DNA from: Geomonas sp. RF6
GTDB lineage: Bacteria > Desulfobacterota > Desulfuromonadia > Geobacterales > Geobacteraceae
NCBI RefSeq assembly: GCF_021044625.1
Contig: NZ_CP087999.1
Span: 3,121,001 to 3,185,000 of the forward strand
Direction: 5' to 3'
Length of the DNA stretch: 64,000 nt
Part shown: piece by piece, positions 32,497 through 39,099 of the stretch
How the letters are laid out: each line of letters starts with the position of its first letter
How positions within the stretch are numbered: the stretch's first letter is position 1
Program-made: the position numbers and the translations under genes
The notes under the pieces: generated by a model
Told to the model about the DNA's origin: nothing
The model's input: only the letters and a program-made list of their open reading frames with translations
Database searches by the model: none

Positions 32497-33558
32497 ATGG
32501 CGACTATAAAAAGGGTTATTTTCACAGCAGTAGCGATGATGGGGCTTGCAGGGATATCGTACGGGACCGGAACGACCAGTGGTAGCGGTAACGGGGGCAG
32601 TGCCGGGACACTGATGGCGGCAGCAGGAGCCGGCGGAGCGGGCGCAGGTGCAGGCGGTGGCGCTGGCGGTGGCGCTGCTGGTGGAACGACGGGCGCAACG
32701 ACGGGCGCAACGAGTGGTGGCTCCACGGGCGGTACGACTTTCAGTGGCACTTTCAGCGGGACCGCCACCGGCGGCGCGGTAGGCGGCGGCACAACGAACG
32801 GCACTACGCTCGGGACCGGCACGACTCCAGGCAGCGGTACAACTGGGATCGGCACGAGCGGCAGTGGTATTGGCGGGACCCTTGGCACCAGCGGCACCAC
32901 GATGGGAACCGGTGCCGGTACGGGTGGCACAACCGGCACAGGGGCGACAGGTACCTTTGGCACCGGTACCCCCGGCACCATCGGAACCGGAACACCCGGC
33001 ACCATCGGCACCGGAACGCCTGGCACCATCGGAACCGGGACACCCGGCACTATCGGAACCGGGACGCCTGGAACTATAGGAACCGCGACGCCCGGCACCG
33101 TAGGCACAGGCACAGGTACAGTCGGAACCGGTGCAGCGACCGGGGGGACTACCGGCACTGGCGCGACTGGAACCACGCCGACAGGCACCGGTACTACATT
33201 CGGCACGGGTGCAGGGACCGGCGGCGGCACTGGCACAACAACCTTCGGCACAGGTACCGGCACCACAACCGGCACTGGCACTGGAACCGGAACCGGTGGT
33301 ACATTCTTCGGCACCGGCACAGGTACCTTCGGCACAGGTACGGGAACGACCGGCACGTTCGGCACCGGAACAACTACCGGTACGGGAACAACAACCGGTA
33401 CGGGAACAACAACCGGTACCGGGACCGGCGGAGGTGTAGGTACCATCGGTGTGGGGACCGGAGGGTCGACAGGAACTACCGGTACCAGCACGACAGGTAC
33501 TCCCGGCACTACGGGAGTTGGCGGTGGAACAGGGACCAGCGGCACTACCGGATTCTAA
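32497..33558 (+). CDS. Exported Gly/Thr-rich tandem-repeat protein
   Basis: 353 residues. Signal peptide [23 protein letters not shown], then almost only Gly and Thr with Ala, Pro, Ser, Ile and Phe. Tandem units include five near-identical GTGTPGTI repeats (nucleotides about 32960-33080) and later GTGTTT and GTGTFG units. No Cys, few charges, almost no aromatic residues except Phe. AGGAG lies eight bases before ATG 32497. Such low-complexity composition fits a secreted, filamentous or surface matrix protein; no catalytic role is suggested. The open frame on the other strand (Pro/Val-rich) is a by-product of the repeats. Confidence 0.75.
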
Positions 33559-33642: not shown

Positions 33643-34062
33643 TTATGGGGAACCGCGCTGGTCGATGTGGCAGAGGAGACAAAGCTCGTCTCCATTCCGG
33701 ACAAGGTGTGGAGGCGGCTTTGTGAGATCGTGGCACGAGAGGCAAGTCATCTTGCCGTTTTCCAGGACGCATCCCGCACTTTCTATGCTGCTTGCAGGCG
33801 CGTAGTCTCTCTCCTTTCCCGGCGGCGGGTAAGGATGCATTATCGAATGCGTCCCCTGGTACAGGCACTCCTTCCCCGTACAGACAGAGACCGCCGTGCC
33901 GAGCACGCCGGCATGACAACCGAGACACTCCTGCATCGTCATAATTCGTGATGCCTCGTGCAGGTGCCAGCTGTTGTTCCCGCAGAAAGCAAGGAAGATA
34001 CCGGGGAGGATAGCCAGCAAAAGGAGCGCAACGTTTCTTTTTCTGCGCAATGGCGACGGCAC
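33643..34062 (-). CDS. Membrane-anchored triheme c-type cytochrome
   Basis: 139 residues. A basic N terminus and one hydrophobic segment (VALLLLAILPGIFLAFCG, about 11-28) act as anchor or uncleaved signal. Three CxxCH sites: CLGCH (46), CLSCH (107) and CLLCH (128). The last two are paired, as in doubled-CxxCH cytochromes; HSIMHPYPP and HDLTKPPPH provide possible distal His ligands. GTG 34062 is chosen: GCGAGG precedes it and it falls one base after the stop of the previous gene, so the genes are coupled. The ATG at 34089 would overlap that gene. Last gene of the five-gene cluster 33643-36303. Confidence 0.82.
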   Translation of the reverse strand: MPSPLRRKRNVALLLLAILPGIFLAFCGNNSWHLHEASRIMTMQECLGCHAGVLGTAVSVCTGKECLYQGTHSIMHPYPPPGKERDYAPASSIESAGCVLENGKMTCLSCHDLTKPPPHLVRNGDELCLLCHIDQRGSP

Positions 34063-34063
34063 C

Positions 34064-34483
34064 TTACGGCCTCGCGCAAGAGCGTGCATTGAGACTCAGC
34101 CAGGCAGCTACCTGCCTTTCAAGAATGTACATTCTCATCCTGTAGTCCTCTGGCCAATCCCGGCACGCCTTCAGCTTTATGTCCGAAAGGACACGGGCGG
34201 GGACTTCTGCATGGTCGTAGGTGATAAAGCGGATGACGGCGAGGTGCTGCTCCTTGAAGGTGAACAGCTGCATCTCATAGTCGTCGGGCCAGCTCCTGGT
34301 TGCGAAGTCACAAATGGGTGCGACGAAGTCATTATCATGCATCCTTGCCTTCAGATCCTGGAACTCGTGATAGGCCGCTGTCTGCCTTTCCACCGTGAAC
34401 CTTTGCATCTCGTAGTCTTCCTGCCACTCACGACGTGCTTTTTCAAGTATTGTGCTGCGGACATGCTTCGGAACGGAGCTCAT
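34064..34483 (-). CDS. Protein with three W-x-x-D-Y-x-M repeats, unknown function
   Basis: 139 residues built of three ~40-residue units that share I-x5-A-x-R-x-W-[PQ]-[ED]-D-Y-x-M-[QR]: EWQEDYEMQRFTVERQTAA (about 19-37), SWPDDYEMQLFTFKEQHLA (about 64-82) and DWPEDYRMRMYILERQVAA (about 109-127). No signal peptide or membrane segment; predicted mostly helical. Probably cytoplasmic. No family name is known to me. It sits between the sigma-like gene and the triheme cytochrome gene and is coupled to the latter. Confidence 0.75.
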   Translation of the reverse strand: MSSVPKHVRSTILEKARREWQEDYEMQRFTVERQTAAYHEFQDLKARMHDNDFVAPICDFATRSWPDDYEMQLFTFKEQHLAVIRFITYDHAEVPARVLSDIKLKACRDWPEDYRMRMYILERQVAAWLSLNARSCARP

Positions 34484-34540
34484 AGCATCCTCCGGCGGAC
34501 CAAGCCTTCGCAGATCCTGGGGAATCGTCGGTAAAAGGTG

Positions 34541-35170
34541 TCATGCCACGTATCGGCCCTGGTACGGCGTCTCAGCTACCTGCACCCTCATCCGGATCAT
34601 GGCCTGGCTGTGCAGCTGGTGCACCGTCGATTCCGGGAGGTTCAGTGCGTCGCTGATTTGGTGAGATGTCAGCTTCTCGTAATGGCGCAGCGTCACCACA
34701 AGGCCCTCCTTTTCCGGCAGGTCGGAAATCGCCTTCGCGAGGGTCTCTATCAGAAAGGTGTCCAGCAGGAAGCTGTCAAAATTCTCTCCCCCCTGCATCT
34801 CGAATCCTCCTGCTTGCGGGTCCGCGCTGCCCCCCGGAGCGCCGACGGAAGTGAGCAAAGGCACCGGGTACACTTCCTCCAGCACGAACAGGTATTCTTC
34901 CAGTTCGAGTCCCAGATTCCTCGCGACTTCCTCCATCGCCGGGTGCCGCCCCGTTAGCCGCTCCAGGCGCGAAAGCGCCCTCTCCAGGATCGCCATTGTC
35001 TCCGGTACGGTCGTTTGTTGCGAGCGCAACTGCGCCACCTTCTGCGGTGAAGGAGGCAGCAGGTCTTGCCCCTGGGGCCGTGCAACGCCGACCGGACCGT
35101 CGGCTCGACCGGTAAAAGGGAGAGGTGAGTCGACCTCTCCAGGTACAGGGACAGGAGCATATCTCTTCAT
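34541..35170 (-). CDS. Sigma-70-family-like protein with regions 3 and 4 only
   Basis: 209 residues. Residues 1-45 are Pro/Gly-rich and probably disordered. ALSRLERLTGRHPAMEEVARNLGLELEEYLFVLEE (65-99) resembles FliA/sigma-28 region 3. AISDLPEKEGLVVTLRHYEKLTSHQISDALNLPESTVHQLHSQAMIRMR (147-195) resembles region 4 with its helix-turn-helix; HSQA-x-x-R-x-R is typical of FliA. Region 2, needed for core RNA polymerase binding and -10 recognition, is absent. It may bind -35-type DNA or anti-sigma factors, acting as regulator or decoy rather than sigma factor. GAGGAGGAG precedes the ATG. The start at 35170 is well supported. Confidence 0.75.
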   Translation of the reverse strand: MKRYAPVPVPGEVDSPLPFTGRADGPVGVARPQGQDLLPPSPQKVAQLRSQQTTVPETMAILERALSRLERLTGRHPAMEEVARNLGLELEEYLFVLEEVYPVPLLTSVGAPGGSADPQAGGFEMQGGENFDSFLLDTFLIETLAKAISDLPEKEGLVVTLRHYEKLTSHQISDALNLPESTVHQLHSQAMIRMRVQVAETPYQGRYVA

Positions 35171-35243
35171 CGTCTCCTCCTCGACGCCATTGGTATCACC
35201 GATGCGGCGCTCTCCAGCGGTTTTGGCATCTGGCTCTCTCCTG

Positions 35244-35645
35244 CTACTTCAAGTGCTGTGTCAGCATCAGCCCGAGGGCGTAATTGGAATCGAAAGGTGA
35301 AACCATGAGGAGGACGTCCAGGAATATCGTGTTGAGAATCGCCTCCCGCTCCACGCTGGCGATGCACCCCTTATTGCTGCACCGGAATACGGGAATGGAC
35401 GCGCTCATGTGGGTCTCGTACTGAAAGAAGTTGAGGTGCGTCCACCTCTTTGTCGAAGAAAAGAACACGTCCCTCAGGTCCTTCCCGCAGAAAGGGCAGG
35501 TTTCGCCGTTGCCGATGCTGTAGTGAAAGCCGACGTCGATGCGCCTGTTCGCCTTGCTGATCGCCATCGTGGTGAGCTGCCATGGGGGGCGCACCGATAA
35601 GGCGAATTCAAAGACTGCGTGTGACTCTTTCGGTATCAGCTTCAT
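35244..35645 (-). CDS. Stand-alone ISL3-transposase-like zinc-finger domain protein
   Basis: 133 residues. ETCPFCGKDLRDVFFSSTKRWTHLNFFQYETHMSASIPVFRCSNKGC matches the N-terminal zinc-ribbon plus R-x-W-x-H-L-x-F-F-Q-Y-E-T segment of ISL3-type (IS204/IS1001/IS1096/IS1165) transposases. Two Cys pairs (CPFC and CSNKGC) could hold zinc. The DDE catalytic domain is missing, and a different ~30-residue helical end follows (AILNTIFLDVLLMVSPFD). GGAGG five bases before ATG 35645 is a strong start signal and avoids overlap with the cytochrome gene upstream, so it looks like an expressed, repurposed DNA-binding domain; a decayed insertion-sequence relic is the alternative. Confidence 0.65.
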   Translation of the reverse strand: MKLIPKESHAVFEFALSVRPPWQLTTMAISKANRRIDVGFHYSIGNGETCPFCGKDLRDVFFSSTKRWTHLNFFQYETHMSASIPVFRCSNKGCIASVEREAILNTIFLDVLLMVSPFDSNYALGLMLTQHLK

Positions 35646-35676
35646 GATCCCCTCCGCAACAGAGAGCTTGTAGCGG

Positions 35677-36303
35677 TTACTTCCTTTCAGGAGTCTGCTC
35701 GCCTTCATCCACATGGCATGAGAAGCAGAGCGCGCTGTTTCTCTTTGAGGAAATAAGGAGATAGTTTTTCCCTTCGGACTCATCCCTGCTCCCCTTGTTG
35801 TGAACTTCATGGCAGGTGGTGCAGGTGATGATCATAGCTCCCCCTTTGCTCGGACTGGTCCACAAGCGATCAGCAATGGTGACGTCTGTCCCGGCGAAAA
35901 ATGAATCTTTATCCCGAAGCATGCACGGGACCGCCGCACCCGCGTCGGCGGCAGCCTTGGGGCCACACGCACCGCTTTTCACTTCATTGCGGTAGGGAAG
36001 GCCGGTGCGGTGGTGCTGCAGAGGGTAGCTCGCCACGATGCCGTCGTGGCAGGTAGAGCACAGGCGTCCCGGGTCCCCTGAATCCCCTGCCGCATCCGGA
36101 CCGCTCCCTGTCCTGGCGGTCCGGACTGTACCGGCGAGGCTGTGTCCGTTGTGGCAGTAAAGGCACGGGCTCGGTCCACTGCTCGTGTAGCGGGTCATGT
36201 CGTGGACCGAGCCGCTCAAGCCGGTTCCCGGAGCCAGGGCGGCAACGGATAAGGATGATGAAGCGACAATGGCGAAGGCGAAGACTGCGGTTGTAACCTT
36301 CAT
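35677..36303 (-). CDS. Periplasmic tetraheme c-type cytochrome
   Basis: 208 residues with signal peptide (MKVTTAVFAFAIVASSSLSVAALA). Four CxxCH sites: CLYCH (47), CSTCH (82), CTTCH (161) and CFSCH (193). The last two are in a doubled-CxxCH arrangement (CTTCHEVHNKGS...LCFSCH); HDMTRYTSSGPSPCLYCHNGHS resembles N-terminal parts of Geobacter extracellular and periplasmic cytochromes. AGGAGG before the ATG. First gene of the minus-strand cluster; a divergent sensor kinase lies 425 bp away. Probably carries electrons across the periplasm. Confidence 0.88.
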   Translation of the reverse strand: MKVTTAVFAFAIVASSSLSVAALAPGTGLSGSVHDMTRYTSSGPSPCLYCHNGHSLAGTVRTARTGSGPDAAGDSGDPGRLCSTCHDGIVASYPLQHHRTGLPYRNEVKSGACGPKAAADAGAAVPCMLRDKDSFFAGTDVTIADRLWTSPSKGGAMIITCTTCHEVHNKGSRDESEGKNYLLISSKRNSALCFSCHVDEGEQTPERK

Positions 36304-36600
36304 GAGTCCCTCCTTTTAGTGCCGATCGTCCCGTTTTCCTGTGGCTGTTTGGAGTGAATCTGCCGCGGTGTCAGTAAAATTGACGCGTGTTAATGATTAC
36401 AACTTAGCAGGTGTCGGCGTGGTGAAAATATTCCCTGGGGTAGTTTGTTGCTATACCTTTCGTTGGATGGGGCGATACGGCGGAAACATCGAAAATGCGG
36501 GCGGATAGCCGAGAGCGCTGCATCGGGCGTCGCTGGGTGAGGAAAAAAATTGGGGGGAATGGTGTTAAAAAAATTATCGGGTGTTGAAAAAAGTAACGAA

Positions 36601-36620
36601 GTATCTATAAAGATAGATAC
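36601..36620. promoter_or_regulatory. Perfect inverted repeat, candidate operator
   Basis: GTATCTAT-aaag-ATAGATAC: 8-bp arms around four bases, in the 425-bp AT-rich gap between the divergent cytochrome cluster and the sensor-kinase gene. It is the clearest dyad in that gap. Its length suits a NarL/FixJ-type or TetR-type dimer; the responsible regulator is unknown. Confidence 0.45.
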
Positions 36621-36728
36621 AGCAACCACAATGGATACATTCTCATGTAGATGGTAGGCCCTACGCGTCGATGCCGTGACTCCACGGCGGCAGGCACTGG
36701 GGTCCTGGCGTGTTGCGAGGGGGGGGCC

Positions 36729-38489
36729 ATGACGACAGGCGCACGAATACGCTATTTCTTGCAGGCACAGCGGGATGATTTCGTTGCCACCGGGCGCACC
36801 GTCATCTCCGTCCTCTTCATTCTGTCCTTTTTGTTTCGCCTCTCGGGACTCTCGGCGCTCGTGCTGGGAGGATTCGTCATCTACACCCTTGCATTGCAGG
36901 GAATCGGGCATTGCAGGTATTTCCTTCCGGAGCGGCTGAACGCAGCTGCACGCCTTGTGGATCTCTTCTTCTTCGGACCTGCCCTGTTGCTGGCGGAGGG
37001 GATGACCACCACTTCCTCCGTTTTCTTCATCTTTCTTCTTATGTGCTGGTCGCTGGCAGTGCCGCTCCTCCGATTCTCTGCCCCATTCGCCACCATGGCC
37101 GTAGTCCTTGCCCTTTCCCTCAACGGCATCGAGCTTCTGGACGACCTGCCGCGCTTGCTTATGCAGTGTGCCAGCGTAGCCGCTATCACTGCTTTGCTCG
37201 CCCACCGCCAGTATCAGGAGAACTCCTTGTTGAAGGTCCTCTCCCTCCTCGCCGAGTGGCCCGCCGCACGCACGGAAAGTCTTGAGAAGCTTTGCTGCGG
37301 GACACTGCCGCATGCCGCGACGGTCCTGGATGCCCCCCGACTCCTTCTTCTCGTGGAGGATGATCAGGAGCCGTGGATGCACTCGGTGTTGTGGTCGCAA
37401 AAGGGGTGCGAGTACAGCTGTGGAGAGTACTCCGATCTGGCCACCCTCATCCCGGTCTCAACGAGCATGAATACCTTCTACTGCAGCGATGCCGGGCAGC
37501 GCAACCCCGCGTTGCTGCAGCACGGCCGCGACGGATTCAGTGACGGACGAGGCGCCCCGGTCGCGGCGGAGCTGCGGGAGAGGTACTCCATCTGCGCCGT
37601 ACTCGGCTCGCGGGTGGAGGGGAAAAGGGCTCATGGTTTCCTGCTGGCACTGGACAGCAAGAAGCCCTCTCCGCACGGACTCGTTGTCTGTGACGTCGTC
37701 GCCGCAAGGGTGGCGGCCTTGCTCGATGCCTTCTTTCTGGAGAAAGAGCTGCAGGAGGATGCCGTTTTGCATGAGCGTGCCGCGATGGCCCGTGACCTGC
37801 ACGACGGCCTCTTGCAGTCCCTTGCGGGGGTAGTGCTGGATCTGGAGCGGGCGCATCGGCTCATGGAGGGCGATCCGGACGCCGCGAGACTGCTGATCCT
37901 GCAGGTCCAGCACCAGGCCGCGGCGGAGCAGAAGGACCTGAGATCGCAGGTTACCCGTTTCAGGGGGTGGCAGAGACCGCATGTCGAGTTCCATCTCCTC
38001 CCCCGTTTGCACGAACTTGGCGAGCGTATCACACGTCAGTGGAACGTTCCCGTAGTCATCGAGGCGCCCCCGGTGATACCGCAGTGTGCCGCCTCCCTGG
38101 ACCGGGAGATTTACCTCCTGATCCACGAGGCGCTCCTCAATGCGGTGCGGCATGCGAGCGCCACGGCGCTGCACCTGCATCTCGACTTCAGCAGGGACCG
38201 GGCCCGTATCACGGTCTCGGACGATGGGTGCGGATTTCCATTCGCAGGATCTTTGGACGAGGCGGCACTTTTGGAGATGAAGCAGGGACCGGTCTCCTTG
38301 CGGGAGCGGGCGACCGCCCTCGGTGGCGGTATCACCGTCCATTCCTCCCCGGAAGGGGCTGTGGTCGAGATTGCCATTCCGTTGCCCGAAGGTGAGGCTT
38401 GTAACGACGCGTCTGTGGCGGGAGTTCCTTCCGTGGACAGCCATGAACAGGAGGAAACCAATGTCTATTACTATCGTGCTGGCAGATGA
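36729..38489 (+). CDS. NarX-like sensor histidine kinase
   Basis: 586 residues. N-terminal membrane part (about 20-160) with several helices: TVISVLFILSFLFRLSGL, LVLGGFVIYTLALQGI, LVDLFFFGPALLLAEG, SVFFIFLLMCWSLAVPLL and MAVVLALSLNGIEL. A GAF-like middle domain follows (about 190-350). HisKA_3 has the phosphoacceptor ARDLHDGLLQSLAG; HATPase carries IHEALLNAVRHASA and DDGCGFPF. ATG 36729 has GCGAGGGGGG upstream. It overlaps the response-regulator gene by 29 bases. A membrane-embedded sensor with a soluble GAF domain suggests sensing of a hydrophobic or redox signal; the ligand is unknown. Confidence 0.92.
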   Translation: MTTGARIRYFLQAQRDDFVATGRTVISVLFILSFLFRLSGLSALVLGGFVIYTLALQGIGHCRYFLPERLNAAARLVDLFFFGPALLLAEGMTTTSSVFFIFLLMCWSLAVPLLRFSAPFATMAVVLALSLNGIELLDDLPRLLMQCASVAAITALLAHRQYQENSLLKVLSLLAEWPAARTESLEKLCCGTLPHAATVLDAPRLLLLVEDDQEPWMHSVLWSQKGCEYSCGEYSDLATLIPVSTSMNTFYCSDAGQRNPALLQHGRDGFSDGRGAPVAAELRERYSICAVLGSRVEGKRAHGFLLALDSKKPSPHGLVVCDVVAARVAALLDAFFLEKELQEDAVLHERAAMARDLHDGLLQSLAGVVLDLERAHRLMEGDPDAARLLILQVQHQAAAEQKDLRSQVTRFRGWQRPHVEFHLLPRLHELGERITRQWNVPVVIEAPPVIPQCAASLDREIYLLIHEALLNAVRHASATALHLHLDFSRDRARITVSDDGCGFPFAGSLDEAALLEMKQGPVSLRERATALGGGITVHSSPEGAVVEIAIPLPEGEACNDASVAGVPSVDSHEQEETNVYYYRAGR

Positions 38490-39099
38490 TCATCCCCTCC
38501 TGCTAAACGGCCTCTCCAATCTTTTCAGGATGGAGGAGGATTTAGAGGTAGTGGCCTGCTGCAGTAACGGCGTGGAGGCCATGGATGCCATTCGCGAGCA
38601 TCGCCCGGACGTGGCGGTTCTCGACATCCGGATGCCAAAGCTGAACGGGCTCGACGCCGCGCGCCAGATCCTGGAGGAGAAGCTTTGTCCCCGCGTCGTC
38701 CTCCTTACCGCCGCGCTGGAAGAGGAGCAGACCCTGGAGGCCCTGCGCATAGGGGTACACGGCCTCCTCCTGAAGGAAATGACGCCGCATCTTGTGGTGC
38801 AATGCATACGGAAGGTCTATGCCGGAGAGCAGTGGGTGGAGCATGCCTCGGTAATGCAGGCGCTGGGGAGGATGCTGCAGCGTGAAAATGCCCCTCCGGA
38901 GGCGTGCGCGAACCTTACGCCCCGGGAGCTGGACATCGTGCGTCTGGTCTCCCGTGGGCTGCGCAACAAGGAGATCGCCGAAAAGTTCTGTCTCAGTGAA
39001 GGGACGGTGAAGGTCCACCTGCACAACATCTACGAAAAGGTAAAGGTGAACGGGCGCGTCGCTCTATTACGTCACGCGCAGGAGAGAGGTCTCGTGTAG
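38461..39099 (+). CDS. NarL/FixJ-family response regulator
   Basis: 212 residues. Receiver domain (IVLADDHPLLLNGLSNLF; phosphoacceptor Asp in VAVLDIRMPKLNG near residue 54; Thr in VVLLTAA; Lys in LLLKEM). C-terminal LuxR-type HTH: LTPRELDIVRLVSRGLRNKEIAEKFCLSEGTVKVHLHNIYEKV. AGGAGG six bases before ATG 38461, which lies inside the kinase gene. It probably controls nearby genes, such as the divergent cytochrome cluster. Confidence 0.95.
   Translation: MSITIVLADDHPLLLNGLSNLFRMEEDLEVVACCSNGVEAMDAIREHRPDVAVLDIRMPKLNGLDAARQILEEKLCPRVVLLTAALEEEQTLEALRIGVHGLLLKEMTPHLVVQCIRKVYAGEQWVEHASVMQALGRMLQRENAPPEACANLTPRELDIVRLVSRGLRNKEIAEKFCLSEGTVKVHLHNIYEKVKVNGRVALLRHAQERGLV

Follow-up and report, generated by a model that had tools for sequence, protein, structure and literature searches.

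A five-gene cytochrome operon of Geomonas sp. RF6 next to a divergent HisKA_3/NarL-type two-component system, and its candidate role as signalling output

Introduction

NarX/NarL systems unite a HisKA_3 sensor kinase with a response regulator composed of a receiver and a GerE domain, and ISL3-family transposases start with a segment that includes a zinc ribbon. Region 2 of sigma factors is responsible for core binding and −10 recognition, and the sigma factor FliA (sigma-28) is contacted via region 4 by its anti-sigma factor FlgM. The location of sigma factor regions on separate proteins is described for SigO-RsoA of Bacillus subtilis in PMC10141391. These are among the closest known systems to the parts of a single locus of Geomonas sp. 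RF6, a member of the iron-respiring Geobacter group (order Geobacterales). The locus is analyzed here within a window of 64,000 nucleotides (contig NZ_CP087999.1, positions 3,121,001 to 3,185,000; positions below without a genome label refer to this window). It encodes two multiheme cytochromes, a stand-alone ISL3-type zinc-ribbon protein, a FliA-derived sigma-like protein and a protein with three W-x-x-D-Y repeats. The best explanation as a whole is a lineage-specific operon that is located divergent to a HisKA_3/NarL-type system and most likely represents its output, an interpretation of sequence data that we hold with about even confidence. In the accessible portion of the open-licence literature, neither this gene set nor ISL3 zinc proteins that stand alone in combination with two-component systems turned up, and the words “transposase”, “zinc” and “ISL3” are absent from the main text of PMC2725144 as far as it was available.

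Results

The operon and its paralogous divergon

The link between the operon and the divergent kinase/regulator pair, which had been proposed in a preliminary description of this DNA, is supported by a paralogous divergon with shared upstream blocks. At G000:C1:3867174-3868938 (G000 is the host genome, a single contig of 5.26 Mb), the only clear paralogue of the zinc protein in the host genome (frame 3867174-3867950) lies divergent from a NarL-type regulator gene, and the identities amount to 137/212 for the regulator and 68/128 (53%) for the zinc protein. The intergenic regions of window and paralogue comprise 347 and 349 nt and share two blocks with 26/35 (score 17) and 19/22 (score 16) identical positions, compared with a maximal score of 13 in 100 mononucleotide shuffles. 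With at most one mismatch, AAAATTNNCGNSTGTTRA, a motif taken from the first of these blocks, has three sites in the genome, two of them in the window region and one in the paralogous region, and CATCCANCNAAAGGTATAG, which represents the second block, occurs exactly at the two intergenic regions only. A wider regulon traced with the latter was rejected, since up to three mismatches resulted in five matches versus four for the reversed control; the three non-exact matches have three mismatches each and one is located inside the regulator gene. The paralogous zinc frame opens with a signal-peptide-like stretch where the window has the cytochrome start, which suggests that an exported protein formerly stood at this divergon too.

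The earlier designation of the pair as “NarX/NarL-like” is loose. The pair consists of a HisKA_3 kinase and a receiver-GerE regulator. Only the HisKA_3 and HATPase domains of the kinase pass the Pfam cut-offs, a further sensor domain does not, and the NCBIfam cut-offs are missed for NarL (162 of 250), NarX (57.9 of 578) and NarQ (58.8 of 553).

The five minus-strand genes within 36303-33643 are intact frames in the order given previously (Table 1), and the reported same-strand arrangement with ribosome sites and short gaps was confirmed by refined starts and Pfam. After start refinement the gaps are 31, 73, 57 and 1 nt; four of the five genes have strong upstream ribosome sites (purine runs), and the site of the triheme cytochrome is weaker (GAGG). 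The latter gene probably starts with the GTG at 34062, one base past the repeat gene, and for the zinc gene a start that yields 133 aa (35645-35244) is preferred to the 188-aa frame, which would overlap the cytochrome. For each of the five genes the true frame exceeds the five alternatives in codon score; the margin is narrow for the zinc (0.62 vs 0.58), sigma-like (0.57 vs 0.55) and triheme cytochrome genes (0.52 vs 0.50). The genes probably form one compact, co-transcribed operon; both cytochromes are predicted to be exported and the three remaining proteins to be cytoplasmic, and with localization understood as prediction the original view of such a unit is upheld. Scans of 4.6 kb retrieved one sigma-70 promoter site (1.1 expected) and three terminator-like sites (3.6 expected), a long hairpin downstream does not exceed shuffles in stability (z −0.75), and 10 kb contain no Rfam match at gathering scores. 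A plus-strand gene convergent with the operon (32497-33558) has tandem repeats with lengths of 24 nt and 48 nt; its product of 353 aa begins like a signal peptide, and glycine (135 residues) and threonine (124 residues) account for nearly three quarters of it.

Table 1. Features of the operon, the divergent two-component genes and the region between them (window coordinates)
Feature	Position	Strand	Characteristics
Tetraheme c-type cytochrome	35677..36303	-	208 aa; 4 CXXCH; upstream GGAGG; signal-peptide-like start (by eye)
Stand-alone ISL3-type zinc-ribbon protein	35244..35645	-	133 aa; upstream GGAGGGG
FliA-derived sigma-like protein, regions 3 and 4 only	34541..35170	-	209 aa; upstream GAGGAGGAG
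Triple W-x-x-D-Y repeat protein	34064..34483	-	139 aa; upstream GGAGG; repeats spaced 45 residues
Triheme cytochrome	33643..34062	-	139 aa; 3 CXXCH; N-terminal hydrophobic segment
Divergent intergenic region	36304..36650	.	common to operon and kinase gene
AAAATTNNCGNSTGTTRA, copy 1	36376..36393	+	motif search
Block TTGCTATACCTTTCGTTGGATG	36448..36469	.	19/22 identical in paralogous divergon
AAAATTNNCGNSTGTTRA, copy 2	36570..36587	+	inside shared block 36563-36597 (26/35 identical)
HisKA_3 sensor kinase	36651..38489	+	divergent from operon; hydrophobic N-terminal part (by eye); true start possibly further in
NarL-type response regulator (receiver and GerE)	38461..39099	+	212 aa; paralogue at G000:C1:3868300-3868938

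Short ISL3-zinc genes and two-component genes in relatives

The search of relatives was based on 97 genomes including the host, a set without any other species of the host's genus, and a wider sample comprised 277 genomes of the class. The short ISL3-zinc genes (open frame <220 aa) amount to 25 frames from 20 other genomes, all of which were fetched; one frame of 228 aa in a multi-copy element is left out of this set. Sixteen of the 25 loci, from 16 genomes of three families, exhibit a divergent gene for a PAS-kinase and/or an NtrC-type regulator at a distance of at most 420 nt (L068, L070, L071, L073-L075, L077, L078, L080, L083-L085, L172-L175). The NtrC gene alone was seen at L071 and L073, the zinc gene is located between the kinase and NtrC genes at L078, and at three of these 16 loci, the ones that were tested, the domains of the kinase and of the sigma-54 activator were confirmed by Pfam. 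The zinc gene of L177 has a divergent NarL-type regulator gene at 446 nt, and L067 (genome G047), whose zinc protein belongs to the group of the window's protein as a third, more distant member, has a same-strand LuxR-type regulator gene 622 nt away.

The regions upstream of 20 zinc genes, 16 with the kinase/NtrC pair or its NtrC gene and four without, were scanned for sigma-54-type −24/−12 elements. A score of at least 20 of 24 was reached by 13/20 zinc genes (10/16 linked, 3/4 unlinked) in comparison to 12/231 other genes of the loci, and a pattern that was set after seeing the sites matched 14/20 zinc genes versus 6/272. The sigma-54 and pairing counts are not independent, because several loci are close relatives of each other. 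Our best reading is that the short ISL3-zinc proteins represent recurrent two-component outputs, a pairing for which no precedent turned up in the open-licence literature. Sigma-54 control of the window operon was considered and rejected, as none of the six genes tested has a −24/−12 match upstream. Four loci (L076, L079, L081, L082) contain a short zinc gene with a −24/−12-like site and no two-component gene nearby; three of them adjoin a gene for a single-CXXCH protein of 573-591 aa, and L079 and L081 are situated beside an MscL-like gene (by eye).

Provenance of the cytoplasmic proteins

The zinc protein passes the Pfam cut-off of Zn_ribbon_ISL3 (PF14690; 28.8 bits, cut-off 25.5) and corresponds to the N-terminal part of an ISL3 transposase, namely, the zinc ribbon and the start of the helical part, with no catalytic domain. 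Its score of 23 bits against the NCBIfam ISL3 model (cut-off 180) and its length of only 133 aa show that it is not a full-length transposase. The structural model has a pLDDT of 80.0, and neither fold nor profile comparison gave a PDB match for the protein at E 0.001 or better. Matches on plasmids (17 records) are mostly annotated as ISL3 transposases. One relative (G020:C1) contains 17 ISL3 zinc-domain matches, most of them in frames of 412-436 aa, which is indicative of a multiplied ISL3 element.

The sigma-like protein exceeds the Pfam cut-offs of Sigma70_r4 (45.3, cut-off 24.1) and Sigma70_r3 (27.7, cut-off 25.3), with a clear helix-turn-helix in region 4. Region 2 has no Pfam match and the alignment with FliA of the host starts past it; the two proteins are about 37% identical over regions 3 and 4, and the linker between these regions is altered and not conserved. 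Matches at E 1e-10 or better are present in 78/97 genomes including the host, and those other than the protein itself are FliA-like, aligned within query residues 47-206 and located in frames of at least 217 aa, except one of 137 aa. The two matches inspected, FliA of the host and this 137-aa frame-split FliA (G058), both reside amid flagellar genes. The best matches among solved structures are also FliA-type, for example FliA of entry 1rp3, and those on plasmids (11 records) are FliA or unannotated. Because region 2 is missing, the protein should not be able to act as an ordinary sigma factor, and such a role is unlikely.

The only Pfam match of the repeat protein is DUF6956, at 19.5 bits under the cut-off of 27, and this below-cut-off match is found in one of seven family members; a search with DUF6956 had no match in the 97 genomes and is uninformative, because the 14 control genomes were negative too. 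AlphaFold2 predicts three helical hairpins with a mean pLDDT of 93.5. The protein has matches in the host alone among the 97 genomes and in 3/277 genomes of the class including the host. The other two are partial; in G176 the match looks like one C-terminal repeat attached to a lipoprotein-like protein, and the other is located near a contig end. Outside the class, a second scan of genome contigs retrieved six relatives and a first, single-sequence scan none: Rubrivivax and Azonexus (44%), a cyanobacterial genome (39%), Acetobacter (34%), an actinomycetotal genome (33%) and Aquibacillus (31%). One plasmid record and, in the second of two viral scans (the first had none), three viral contigs with two repeats were added; phages had no match. 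The neighborhoods of five of the six loci outside the class, including two on contigs no longer than 3-4 kb, encode no other operon protein, and none was seen by eye at the Aquibacillus locus. The family is therefore a helical-hairpin repeat of patchy distribution, which in some cases sits on a membrane anchor (by eye). Solved structures gave a best E of 0.065 to a ribosomal protein by sequence, Foldseek found nothing at E 0.001 or better in the PDB and viral models, and the best VIA-align hit (Z 6.0) was to designed repeats and is not informative.

The DNA pattern of W-x-x-D-[YF]-x-M has 13 places in 10/97 genomes: three are the window's repeats, seven fall into unrelated frames of 401-718 aa, and three have no matching frame. 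A two-repeat W/F-x-x-D-Y/F module on an Acetobacter plasmid (L100:4998-5306) lies beside a gene annotated as restriction endonuclease, and the two-repeat proteins of the viral contigs (L179-L181) have an N-terminal hydrophobic stretch; L180 matches PHROG 25501.

The two cytochromes and the conservation of the gene set

The tetraheme cytochrome (Pfam Cytochrome_C7, 30.8 bits, cut-off 24.8) has matches in 4/97 genomes including the host at E 1e-12 or better, and the host genome encodes five further strong matches in frames of 259 to 332 residues. It is a short diverged member of a locally expanded tetraheme family. Four of its relatives in the host genome adjoin very large cytochromes with 9 to 20 heme motifs; these four copies of the pair are located at G000:C1:528000-547000 (L154), 560000-579900 (L155) and 5097000-5113000 (L066), and kinase- and OmpR-like regulator genes are found near the L154 and L155 pairs (by eye). 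The triheme cytochrome (Paired_CXXCH_1, 23.8 bits, cut-off 20.6) has relatives in 37/97 genomes including the host. None of 16 triheme loci, from 16 of the 36 other genomes, encodes a relative of the zinc, sigma-like, repeat or tetraheme protein (E 1e-5); one of these loci comprises only 4.2 kb, and four have large proteins with weak matches to the NtrC domain. The family is common across the order and solitary at the 16 loci.

Conserved co-occurrence across relatives had initially been suggested as a check of the five-gene cluster, with scattered or unlinked genes named as the contrary observation. This is what the repeat, sigma-like and both cytochrome genes exhibit, which refutes the notion of a conserved five-gene unit. 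The operon is lineage-specific, and within the genomes examined its five-gene combination was seen in the host alone. Its parts are each of a known kind, except for the repeat protein, whose scattered family was not found to be covered by any curated model.

Discussion

We infer the following molecular roles. The kinase would phosphorylate the regulator, which would bind the shared blocks and switch the operon plus its own kinase and regulator genes. The two cytochromes would be exported as small electron carriers. The zinc protein would stem from the N-terminus of an ISL3 transposase by domestication and would be the oldest of the cytoplasmic outputs; it probably acts in feedback by binding DNA or a regulator. 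The fragment of sigma regions 3 and 4, which could not initiate transcription by itself, may bind FlgM or the −35 DNA of promoters. An adaptor role is probable for the helical repeat protein, which would have been acquired from outside the order. In the best reading, the window operon contains the cytochromes and two odd passengers, the sigma-like and the repeat protein, in addition to the zinc output. A broader scenario, which we propose tentatively and consider possible rather than probable, is that the ISL3 N-terminal zinc piece has been domesticated in this order, perhaps repeatedly, as a dedicated output and feedback partner of two-component systems, with NtrC and sigma-54 promoters in most relatives and a NarL-type regulator here, and that in the host lineage two cytochromes, a helical adaptor and a sigma fragment were added to this module to form one redox-controlled operon.

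Several observations weigh against the interpretation of the operon as a signalling output. The zinc domain tree (34 sequences) places the window's protein, its paralogue and the G047 protein, a long branch, with the transposases and apart from the NtrC-linked clade; the main split has a support of 85/99 in an unrooted tree (midpoint root). The parallel to the NtrC-linked loci may accordingly be convergence, and the two types of zinc proteins may represent separate domestications, which would weaken the analogy, yet render it more striking that they are repeatedly found paired with signalling genes. Seven of the 25 short zinc loci have no nearby two-component gene, and three of these (L069, L072, L176) resemble decayed transposases. 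A crude cysteine check fails in 3/23 zinc proteins. The opposite strand of the same 20 upstream regions reaches a sigma-54 score of at least 20 in 4/20 cases, and no such element precedes the window genes, the paralogue or the zinc genes of G047 and L177. Finally, AAAATTNNCGNSTGTTRA was derived from its own three sites and its reversed control matched once, and the shared blocks could be duplication remnants rather than binding sites.

A rival explanation is chance accretion, according to which a single promoter came to precede unrelated genes. Only the cytochromes would then be of importance, whereas the genes for the zinc, sigma-like and repeat proteins would be passengers in drift or remnants, namely, a truncated transposase and a truncated FliA. 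The truncated state of two proteins from known families, the patchy spread of the third and the absence of the gene set from every other genome examined are all in line with it. Intact frames, ribosome sites and host-like codon use throughout speak against it, even if the codon margins are narrow for some genes. So do the two surviving zinc genes, which are 53% identical, have retained their cysteine pairs and lie beside the same type of regulator, and the recurrence of short ISL3-zinc genes beside two-component genes. Chance accretion is a serious but rather unlikely alternative to a signalling output.

Two further explanations concern the sigma-like protein. It could be one half of a split sigma factor, as in SigO-RsoA, and would then drive the operon jointly with a distinct region 2 protein; such factors exist (PMC10141391), and regions 3 and 4 with the clear helix-turn-helix are present. 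However, the eight region 2 domains found in the genome are all located in frames of at least 219 aa, whose region 4 was not checked singly, and none is encoded in the cluster, and the linker is not conserved. We regard a split sigma factor as highly improbable. Alternatively, the protein might titrate FlgM, and the operon would thereby tune flagellar genes. The FliA-type best matches, also among solved structures, agree with this proposal, which we nevertheless regard as improbable.

If the link between operon and two-component system is true, a transposase domain without transposase activity would be a common signalling component in this bacterial group, and the window operon would be a rare signalling-linked operon extended with parts of mobile-element and flagellar genes. 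If it is false, the genes represent an ordinary lineage-specific cluster.

Comparison with described systems

The window pair shares the kinase and regulator makeup of NarX/NarL systems and differs by the lack of a further sensor domain over the Pfam cut-off and by scores below the NCBIfam cut-offs. The sigma-like protein has regions 3 and 4 in common with FliA/sigma-28 and deviates from it by the missing region 2 and the changed linker; SigO-RsoA is comparable in having sigma regions on separate proteins, but a region 2 partner was not seen in the host genome. Solitary triheme cytochromes of the same order (~140 aa) are like that of the window in their three CXXCH motifs, size and 46-56% identity (14 best matches), whereas they are unlinked to zinc, sigma-like, repeat and tetraheme genes at the 16 loci. 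ISL3-family transposases share the N-terminal segment and the zinc ribbon with the zinc protein (29-32% identity for five of six aligned, 22% for the sixth). In contrast to them, the window protein has a length of 133 aa, is devoid of the catalytic part and is encoded in an operon behind a cytochrome gene.

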